The position numbers and the translations under genes were made by a program. The notes below the pieces were generated by a model. It searched no databases. It saw only the letters and a list, made by a program, of their open reading frames with translations, and had not been told where the DNA came from. This document shows positions 52,791 through 53,318 of a stretch of 53,318 nt of DNA, in pieces. How positions within the stretch are numbered: the first letter of the stretch is position 1; each line of letters opens with the position of its first letter. Origin of the DNA: an uncultured Bacteroidales bacterium (GTDB lineage: Bacteria; Bacteroidota; Bacteroidia; Bacteroidales; FEN-979); the NCBI GenBank assembly GCA_903845055.1, contig CAIMWF010000116.1:1-53318 (forward strand), read 5' to 3'.

Positions 52791-52850
52791 GGTAGCGGGG
52801 ATAGGATTTGTCCCGACTTAAAGTCGGGATATGAGCCCAACGAACTATCC
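52791..52850 (-). pseudogene. Displaced 3' fragment of an initiator tRNA-Met gene with palindrome
   Basis: Read on the minus strand it begins GATAGTTCGTTGGGCTCATA, matching the D-arm to anticodon segment of the intact tRNA at 53133-53204 with two changes and retaining the CAT anticodon. It ends AATCCTATCCCCGCTAC, matching the T-arm/acceptor 3' end. Between them a 19-base palindrome plus two bases replaces the 3' anticodon strand, variable loop and 5' T-arm. The 5' half of the tRNA is missing. The stop codon of the GIY-YIG ORF lies inside it. Confidence 0.78.
52811..52829. repeat. 19-bp palindrome in the tRNA fragment
   Basis: TCCCGACTT-A-AAGTCGGGA, 9-base arms around one base. The same palindrome with central T is at 53256-53274 and a variant is at 53293-53311. 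Confidence 0.9.
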
Positions 52851-53093
52851 TATTTGAATGATTTTCAAGATCATCGACTTGCTTTTATAGGATTTTATCT
52901 TTTTCTCGGCAGCTTCCGCCTCCACTTTTGTTTGATATTGCTGTTTGAAAACAAGATTCCATGGCTGGTATCGTTTTGTAAACCCTTTGTTTTGCGGATG
53001 ATTATGGGCACTGAGCCTGCCTTCAGGGTTTGAGGAGGAACCGACATAGAATTTGTCGGCCGATGGAGAATATATGATGTAAACGTAATGCAT
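52845..53093 (-). CDS. GIY-YIG nuclease domain protein
   Basis: An 82-residue single-domain GIY-YIG endonuclease. The motif pair is VYIIYSPSADKFYVG (about residues 4-18); the catalytic Arg is in GRLSAHN (about 26) and the metal-binding Glu is in VEAEAAEKKIK. Such proteins cut DNA; small ones of this class (UvrC-N-like) are often annotated as UPF0213-type. The ATG at 53093 follows a run of seven T residues of the tRNA terminator directly, leaving no room for a ribosome binding site, and its TAG stop falls in the D-arm motif of the tRNA fragment. It is thus enclosed between an intact tRNA and a tRNA fragment. Confidence 0.85.
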   Translation of the reverse strand: MHYVYIIYSPSADKFYVGSSSNPEGRLSAHNHPQNKGFTKRYQPWNLVFKQQYQTKVEAEAAEKKIKSYKSKSMILKIIQIG

Positions 53094-53128
53094 AAAAAAA
53101 GGTTGAACCTTTAATGATTCAACCTTTT
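53094..53128 (-). terminator. Terminator of the initiator tRNA gene
   Basis: On the minus strand a perfect 11-base stem (AAAAGGTTGAA / TTCAACCTTTT, 10-base loop) ends in seven T residues, starting 5 bases after the tRNA. The GIY-YIG start codon follows at once, so that ORF needs read-through or its own signal. Confidence 0.85.
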
Positions 53129-53132
53129 GTAG

Positions 53133-53204
53133 TAGCGGGGACAGGATTCGAACCTATGACCTTTGGGTTATGAGCCCAACGAGCTACCACTGCTCCACCC
53201 CGCA
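53133..53204 (-). tRNA. Initiator tRNA-Met (CAT anticodon)
   Basis: A complete 72-base cloverleaf on the minus strand: acceptor TGCGGGG/CCCCGCT, D stem GAGC/GCTC, anticodon stem TTGGG/CCCAA around loop CTCATAA, T stem ATAGG/CCTGT around TTCGAAT. Two initiator marks are seen: position 1 and position 72 are unpaired (T and T), and three G-C pairs close the anticodon stem. CCA is not encoded (CTA follows). The body closely resembles E. coli fMet tRNA. Confidence 0.93.
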
Positions 53205-53255
53205 ATATATTTTCAATAATTTAAGAACCAAATTCTGGCAGGATTCGAACCTGTG

Positions 53256-53274
53256 TCCCGACTTTAAGTCGGGA
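53256..53274. repeat. 19-bp palindrome in place of the variable region
   Basis: TCCCGACTT-T-AAGTCGGGA. Together with the 14 tRNA bases that follow and one base before, it forms a 34-base direct repeat of 52810-52843 with one mismatch, 445 bases apart. Confidence 0.9.
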
Positions 53275-53292
53275 TATGAGCCCAACGAGCAA

Positions 53293-53311
53293 TCCCGAGT
53301 TTAACTCGGGA
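53293..53311. repeat. 19-bp palindrome in place of the D loop
   Basis: TCCCGAGTT-T-AACTCGGGA. It differs from the other two palindromes by a C-to-G change in one arm and the matching G-to-C change in the other, so pairing is kept. Confidence 0.9.
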
Positions 53312-53318
53312 CTCCACC

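Follow-up and report, generated by a model that had tools for sequence, protein, structure and literature searches.

Small GIY-YIG nuclease genes at split and rebuilt tRNA genes of Bacteroidales, a candidate family of minimal homing elements

The window analysed here, a stretch of 53,318 nucleotides from an uncultured Bacteroidales bacterium (assembly GCA_903845055.1, contig CAIMWF010000116.1), ends in a compact unit in which an intact initiator transfer RNA gene (tRNA-fMet) and an open reading frame (ORF) for a small GIY-YIG protein lie between broken pieces of the same tRNA gene. Judged from sequence comparison, the unit is probably a minimal selfish element, namely a free-standing GIY-YIG homing endonuclease gene which is specific for one tRNA gene and rebuilds its target. 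The evidence comprises a split gene, a rebuilt copy, native flanks outside the unit, its presence and absence at the same site among relatives, nuclease clades that follow tRNA isotype, tandem units and palindromes in the dead copies.

On the minus strand, the order of the parts is a pseudo-tRNA-fMet, a leader, the intact tRNA-fMet, a terminator hairpin, the GIY-YIG ORF and a tRNA-fMet remnant. The features of the locus (52750-53318, up to the contig end) are as follows:

53205-53318, minus strand: upstream pseudo-tRNA-fMet unit, interrupted by palindromes (from the sequence); cut by the contig end, with further copies on contig C156 of the same genome
53293-53311, unstranded: palindrome TCCCGAGTTTAACTCGGGA in the D-loop of the upstream pseudo-tRNA (from the sequence)
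53256-53274, unstranded: palindrome TCCCGACTTTAAGTCGGGA in the anticodon arm of the upstream pseudo-tRNA (from the sequence)
53132-53204, minus strand: intact initiator tRNA-fMet (CAT); ARAGORN tRNA-Met(CAT), Rfam tRNA 66.8 bits
53094-53128, minus strand: hairpin and T-run of the intrinsic terminator type; hairpin z -5.9
52845-53093, minus strand: GIY-YIG ORF of 82 amino acids; PF01541, E 2e-17
about 52792-52847, minus strand: displaced, 5'-truncated tRNA-fMet from the D-loop onward; matches nucleotides 19-73 at 77% identity
52811-52829, unstranded: palindrome TCCCGACTTAAAGTCGGGA, which takes the place of part of the remnant's anticodon arm (from the sequence)
52750-52791, minus strand: native 3' flank and terminator of the tRNA-fMet gene; equals the sequence directly after the uninterrupted tRNA-fMet of the congener G003 (locus L129)

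An original prediction, made from the window alone, had described an interrupted tRNA copy, an intact tRNA, a terminator, a GIY-YIG ORF and a 3' fragment; all are present, as is the 34-base direct repeat (52810-52843 and 53255-53288, one mismatch) which it saw bracketing the intact tRNA and the nuclease. The dead tRNA-fMet pieces bear TCCCGA..TCGGGA palindromes, the upstream copy holding a second one in its D-loop, and palindrome TCCCGACTTWAAGTCGGGA (at most one mismatch) occurs at four sites in the genome, all in the array, two of them in the window and two at the start of C156. The stop codon of the nuclease, TAG, lies at the D-loop junction of the downstream remnant, and the terminator between tRNA and nuclease is unlike the native one after the remnant (a score of 7 of 36 relative to the flank of the latter). 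A recombinase gene would not fit into the insert, and none was found; the longest minus-strand ORF of the insert is the GIY-YIG gene itself.

Contig C156 starts with two more pseudo-tRNA units of 119 bp, which are followed by the era gene, and the shared repeat suggests that it adjoins the window contig. Since the window ends at a contig end and C156 begins with two more units, at least three upstream pseudo copies are likely; the interrupted copy that had been predicted upstream of the intact gene is thus real, yet it is one member of a tandem array and not a single copy. By eye, the sequence that leads into the first pseudo unit on C156 is similar to the tRNA-fMet leaders of congeners. An intact tRNA-fMet was found only once in the genome (95% complete), the other four matches being broken copies. 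At other loci of the family, runs of N break some arrays (L060, L066, L104) and many units sit at contig ends, so that array lengths are underestimated.

The split of the native gene becomes apparent when the window is compared with its genus, in which tRNA-fMet loci were sought in 19 genomes and matched in 17, giving the window and 16 congener loci. In G003, the tRNA-fMet is directly followed by CCAAGTCGGAATCCTCATC..., the same sequence that follows the dead remnant of the window, and a protein search of the G003 genome found no relative of the window nuclease. In 14 of the 16 congener loci, a divergent era gene begins on the upstream side of tRNA-fMet, at a distance of up to about 100 bp in 12 of them and of 490-650 bp in G003 and G016; contig ends truncate the remaining two loci. 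None of the 16 has a GIY-YIG match, and the intact tRNA-fMet of the window is 100% identical to that of ten congeners. The flank shared with G003 and the position of era thus indicate that the native tRNA-fMet gene is split and that the working copy lies inside the insert: the native 5' junction stands at the first pseudo copy and the native 3' junction at the remnant, with the working tRNA and a different terminator between them. The proposal that a nuclease cassette had entered a tRNA gene therefore holds for the splitting, the working gene inside and the displacement of the old 3' end with its native terminator; it fails for the position of the break, which is not at the 3' end of the gene but in the D-arm, or in the anticodon arm in a mirror form described below. 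In three congeners (L134, L135, L140), the gene after tRNA-fMet encodes a phage-type integrase (PF00589, E 3e-12 to 2e-14); tRNA-fMet is hence targeted by more than one kind of element. At L034 (G031:C51), a piece of era, from its 3' end, directly adjoins a tRNA-fMet 3' fragment and a GIY-YIG gene; the contig also contains a complete era, at a distance of about 3 kb.

The window protein belongs to the GIY-YIG superfamily (PF01541, 63.7 bits against a cut-off of 22.6). Residues Y5, Y16, G18 and R26 are invariant in 13 aligned proteins and E63 nearly so; we take the catalytic residues of the domain to be a Tyr, a Tyr/Gly, an Arg and a later Glu. By sequence profile, the closest solved structures are small proteins of the UPF0213 type (PDB 1ywl and 1zg2, E ~4e-13), for which we know of no linkage to tRNA, followed by SLX1 (1e-7). 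The protein is a probable DNA-cutting enzyme. Many ORFs of the family are open upstream into or through the intact tRNA (L011, L016, L031 and the window, 53093-53150), and the C-terminus often enters the remnant; automatic annotation will therefore add tRNA-encoded extensions. Carriage of the window nuclease by phages was considered and rejected, as it had no match among 50,697 phage records (E 1e-5) or in IMG/VR. A query from the tRNA-Val clade of nucleases found two viral contigs, neither with a tRNA within 250 bp; in one of them, L238, the sequence breaks off immediately before the ORF, which is followed by a TCCCG..CGGGA palindrome. A role of the unit in defence was likewise rejected, PADLOC and NCBIfam searches giving no match.

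The extent of the family was assessed with a profile (A1) of 13 relatives, which matched 108 of 197 genomes of the order; the loci analysed are every distinct listed site down to E 2.4e-22, plus a few below. The members of A1 were picked after most had been seen to be tRNA-linked, and the counts that follow therefore hold for this clade rather than for GIY-YIG genes at large. An intact tRNA on the same strand lies within 250 bp in 69 of the 98 loci that score at least 70 bits, and a clear tRNA fragment is present in 17 more. Twelve loci had neither at the first threshold. Six of these (L012, L020, L047, L076, L109, L117) show a weak tRNA fragment of 26.9-41 bits at a laxer threshold, where 3 of 362 control windows score as high, one (121 bits) through what is evidently a real tRNA; two (L035, L045), first taken by eye for tRNA remnants, score 22-24 bits, which is indistinct from control windows, and count as uncertain; four lie between inverted repeats. 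The original prediction had named the same nuclease gene at sites other than tRNA genes as evidence against it, and such sites are confined to these four divergent loci of the 98, inside other inverted repeats, and to the two uncertain ones. In the four (L111, L118, L123, L127), the tRNA-less GIY-YIG ORF sits inside a palindrome, the inverted repeats being of the ACCCCGT..AGATA type in three and GCCCCGCACATAAATT.. in L118; the first inverted repeat differs between L111 and L127, by eye with changes on both arms, and no empty copy of one such repeat was found in five genomes searched. The survey that had been proposed as a check thus bore out the expectation, in that the small GIY-YIG ORFs of the clade adjoin same-strand tRNA genes and the far side often carries a fragment of the same isotype.

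The tRNA upstream of the ORF is Val in 17 loci, Asn in 11, Met in 9, Pro, Arg and Asp in 3 each, Gly and His in 2 each, and Thr, Leu, Ala and Phe in 1 each, while the tRNA downstream is Arg in 13, Pro in 1 and Glu in 1; these numbers exclude ARAGORN hits taken for pseudo-copies (unknown or SeC types, Leu at L053, Phe at L013, Cys at L041). Twelve further loci score below 70 bits: L024 has a same-strand tRNA within 250 bp, L010, L032 and L034 are cut or truncated copies of the fMet type, and eight form a separate clade of small GIY-YIG genes with no same-strand tRNA within 250 bp, one of them (L021) having a tRNA-Ser on the other strand, 135 bp away. The Val-clade query returned 261 loci in named genomes. 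Among the best 80 of the 261, 78 come from genomes titled, by name, as Bacteroidota, including cultured Marivirga, Algoriphagus, Pedobacter and Psychroserpens, and two from bins assigned by title alone to Streptomyces griseus and Bifidobacterium breve; ARAGORN places a tRNA at no more than about 250 bp from the ORF in 64 of the 80, including a few pseudo-copies, and some of the loci are shared with the set of 98. Tandem GIY-YIG units, mostly 330-390 bp apart, occur in many of the listed genomes. Pseudo-tRNA arrays with units of 73-119 bp are also seen.

Two mirror forms of the unit exist. In the common one, found with most isotypes, the tRNA remnant downstream of the ORF has lost its 5' end but extends as far as the 3' end, and the stop codon of the ORF is often within this remnant. 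In the other, seen at most tRNA-Arg loci, a dead 5' stub ends in the anticodon arm and is followed by the ORF and then by an intact tRNA that overlaps the end of the ORF or lies after it; by eye, all 13 Arg-form loci carry a D-loop palindrome of the CCTGCC..GGCAGG type, which in L100 and L121 is interrupted by other sequence. A comparison of an occupied Arg site (L249) with an empty one (L244) shows tRNAs that differ by one base and downstream flanks that differ by a 3-base gap and a few bases; the upstream flanks are alike by eye, and the stub of L249 stops inside the anticodon. In the genus of these two loci, GIY-YIG genes are present at 5 of 17 tRNA-Arg loci (L250 being unreadable upstream) and at 6 of 15 tRNA-Val loci, where L276, L278 and L282 look, by eye, like decayed sites; less than 180 bp of downstream sequence is available for L279, L282 and L284. 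By score, the sequences that follow the intact tRNA and the remnant differ in 17 of 33 measurable loci and match in 16; among the 17, L104 is unreadable owing to runs of N, and L046 and L060 have another pseudo copy after the tRNA. Insertion would predict different flanks, and amplification or gene conversion matching ones.

The nucleases sort by the tRNA beside which they lie. On a tree of 68 proteins, taken from the 70 that have a tRNA within 250 bp by omitting L024 and L122 and covering 13 isotypes, isotype changes 20 times, while none of 300 shuffles needs fewer than 38 changes. Where a genome has several loci (14 genomes, 34 proteins), the genome label changes 29 times, within the 24-29 of the shuffles, and isotype 11 times. 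A nuclease is thus nearer to same-tRNA kin in other families than to its neighbours in its own genome. The trees are built from short proteins, and in the larger one many of the forks have weak support.

The dead copies are marked by their palindromes. In most of them, the anticodon arm has been swapped for a longer hairpin of the TCCCG..CGGGA type, often in tandem arrays, and in some the same kind of palindrome replaces D-loop or T-loop sequence. A normal 7-base loop was found in 97 arms and was absent from 103, among which the stem reaches at least 6 pairs in 95 and TCCCG..CGGG occurs in 72; a few of the 103 are mis-sorted normal arms of other isotypes (e.g. a Gly arm, twice), and the corresponding count of 0 in 97 is partly a product of defining a normal arm by its 7-base loop. 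Among 65 different sequences (48 loci), chosen beforehand by the 5' strand of their stem, pairs 2, 6 and 7 are paired in 62, 62 and 54, compared with maxima of 54, 49 and 45 in shuffles that ignore relatedness; these pairs change on both sides yet stay complementary. Hairpins of the TCCCG..CGGGA type number 84 in the 67 kb near nuclease genes versus 1 in 100 kb further off at the same loci, and those of the CCTGCC..GGCAGG type 15 versus 1, a concentration which rules out a dispersed repeat at these loci. The view that the palindromes form part of the ends that bracket the cassette must be given up, as they mark dead copies instead. Neither hairpin type occurs in window positions 1-52700 (stems of at least 7), where the gene adjoining the unit (51169-52365) encodes a protein with YCF48/PSII_BNR repeats and a Por secretion tail.

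Several known systems share part of this design. Integrative elements at tRNA genes restore the target gene with incoming DNA and displace a fragment; unlike them, the present unit has no integrase in its insert, and its break lies in the D-arm or anticodon arm. Group I introns insert in the anticodon loop of tRNAs, whereas in the window, where only a tRNA reached the Rfam gathering score and no intron RNA was found, the tRNA is rebuilt at the level of DNA. Those group I introns of bacterial tRNA genes that carry homing endonucleases do place a nuclease at a tRNA gene, as here (PMC3984707). In the mORFs of fungal mitochondria (Allomyces atp6; Glomus atp6, atp9, cox2 and nad3), an endonuclease ORF is described as supplying a new gene end and displacing the old one (PMC3630166); they thus share with the window unit an endonuclease ORF in a gene, a new 3' end supplied and the native 3' end beyond the insert. 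The mORFs described there lie in protein genes and are mostly LAGLIDADG (GIY-YIG in atp9), whereas the present units occupy tRNA genes in bacterial chromosomes, exist in a mirror (5') form as well, and show palindromes and tandem arrays. In phage T4, homing is described for free-standing GIY-YIG enzymes (PMC2988022), and SegB of phage T6 is reported in tandem units of tRNA and nuclease (PMC13096335). SegB resembles the present family as a free-standing GIY-YIG enzyme beside tRNA genes of many isotypes, although it belongs to phage genomes and targets a tRNA intergenic region (PMC13096335, PMC2988022); in the available text of these sources, a rebuilt tRNA with dead halves, the feature of the present family, was not found described. 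The likeness to SegB is one of description; in sequence, the PHROG endonuclease phrog_3312 gave a weak match (E 2e-4). Among the best-ranked matches (titles and opening lines of abstracts) in the open-licence literature, GIY-YIG units that split tRNA genes in bacterial chromosomes were not found described. The principle therefore has precedents in fungal mitochondria and phages, and the bacterial chromosomal tRNA targets, the mirror form and the palindrome-marked arrays are what was not found described.

Given the insertion-type anatomy, the phage and fungal precedents and the SegB-like tandem units, we read the unit as a homing element which is at times amplified locally. The ORF lies in or beside its target gene and is absent from the same site in relatives (G003 for fMet, and the Arg and Val loci), and a replacement gene end is supplied while the native end lies beyond the ORF (the window against G003, and in mirror form L249 against L244). 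We infer DNA cleavage, homing as the route and an effect on retention, as follows. The enzyme would cut an uninvaded tRNA-fMet gene, and repair off the invaded chromosome would copy in the nuclease ORF with a stretch of the tRNA gene. In the fMet-type form, the insert would enter the D-arm and bring the rest of the tRNA with a terminator, so that the front tRNA is rebuilt and the resident 3' part is displaced and dead; in the Arg form, it would enter the anticodon arm with a copy of the 5' part, leaving a dead resident 5' stub. As the working tRNA would then be inside or joined to the element, loss of the element by recombination would tend to cost the tRNA, which may favour retention, and repeated cutting and repair may give rise to the tandem arrays. 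The simplest guess for the palindromes, and the least certain part of the scheme, is that they remove nuclease recognition or donor function.

A number of points weigh against homing. The intact tRNA equals the uninvaded gene; for the invaded chromosome to escape cutting, the target would have to include flanking sequence, or cutting of the donor be inefficient. The matching terminators in 16 of 33 loci also fit local duplication, the upstream arrays are not accounted for by a single insertion, and the count of tRNA linkage rests on a profile built from tRNA-linked members. The sequence-constrained palindromes exceed the needs of a simple homing model, and lost recognition or donor function leaves the use of a palindrome of shared sequence unexplained. 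Identity between GIY-YIG proteins exceeds that between Era proteins in just 27 of 136 same-isotype genome pairs (e.g. 78% vs 63%), so that distance alone is no proof of lateral transfer.

A more elaborate scheme, which we put forward only tentatively, is a cut-and-rescue element, in which the nuclease destroys an essential tRNA gene and carries its only working replacement, the broken halves being poisoned by a dedicated palindrome in one of the loops (anticodon, D or T). Deletion of the nuclease by recombination would then leave, in most cases, a tRNA that does not work. The same mechanism would suit many isotypes, only the tRNA part being exchanged, and tRNA-Arg would have the mirror form. 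Local segmental amplification without homing is the strongest of the rival explanations, although we consider it unlikely. Here, a nuclease gene long resident beside a tRNA would be duplicated, through breaks or slippage, from the tRNA to the nuclease 3' end, and the copies would decay, as the tandem units, the pseudo-tRNA arrays and the shared terminators suggest; SegB is reported to amplify tRNA-Tyr together with segB, with microhomology between the tRNA 5' end and the segB 3' end (PMC13096335). Such amplification does not agree with the 17 of 33 loci in which the terminators differ, with presence and absence at one site within a genus while the native flanks are kept, with nuclease clades that track isotype and not genome, or with dead copies whose common, position-specific palindromes are not random decay.

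A domesticated host function, in which pseudo-tRNA RNAs would act as decoys or regulators (e.g. against tRNA-cutting toxins or tRNA-seeking integrases) and the nuclease would maintain the array, is improbable. The units do lie, by eye, downstream of a promoter-like leader in a tRNA operon, the palindromes covary, and phage-type integrase genes adjoin tRNA-fMet in three congeners; yet presence is patchy and sites decay, PADLOC has no match, and the 3' side of the acceptor stem is lost in upstream units and its 5' side in downstream copies. Genes for tRNA are common targets of integrases, with the anticodon loop and T-loop as common places of crossover, and the integrase genes of the congeners could suggest att-site remains beside a tRNA and an unrelated GIY-YIG gene; this is very improbable, no integrase being seen among the ORFs between the tRNA pieces of the window and the nuclease being the constant part at 13 isotypes. 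Assembly artefact or chance, which might be suspected where the window and C156 both end inside a repeat, is the least credible of all and for the family as a whole is already refuted by the same structures within long contigs, in a complete genome (L171, Marivirga arenosa) and in the single contig of G221.

If the homing reading is true, it would explain why the small GIY-YIG genes of a large clade in Bacteroidota are found beside tRNA genes and why fragments of these genes accumulate at such sites. It would also provide a testable bacterial case of an addictive, gene-drive-like element which makes itself indispensable through a few hundred base pairs. Nucleases that are sorted by isotype could teach how a protein of about 80 residues is targeted to DNA, while the palindromes, common to the isotypes and concentrated in dead tRNA copies, are the question which this family poses.
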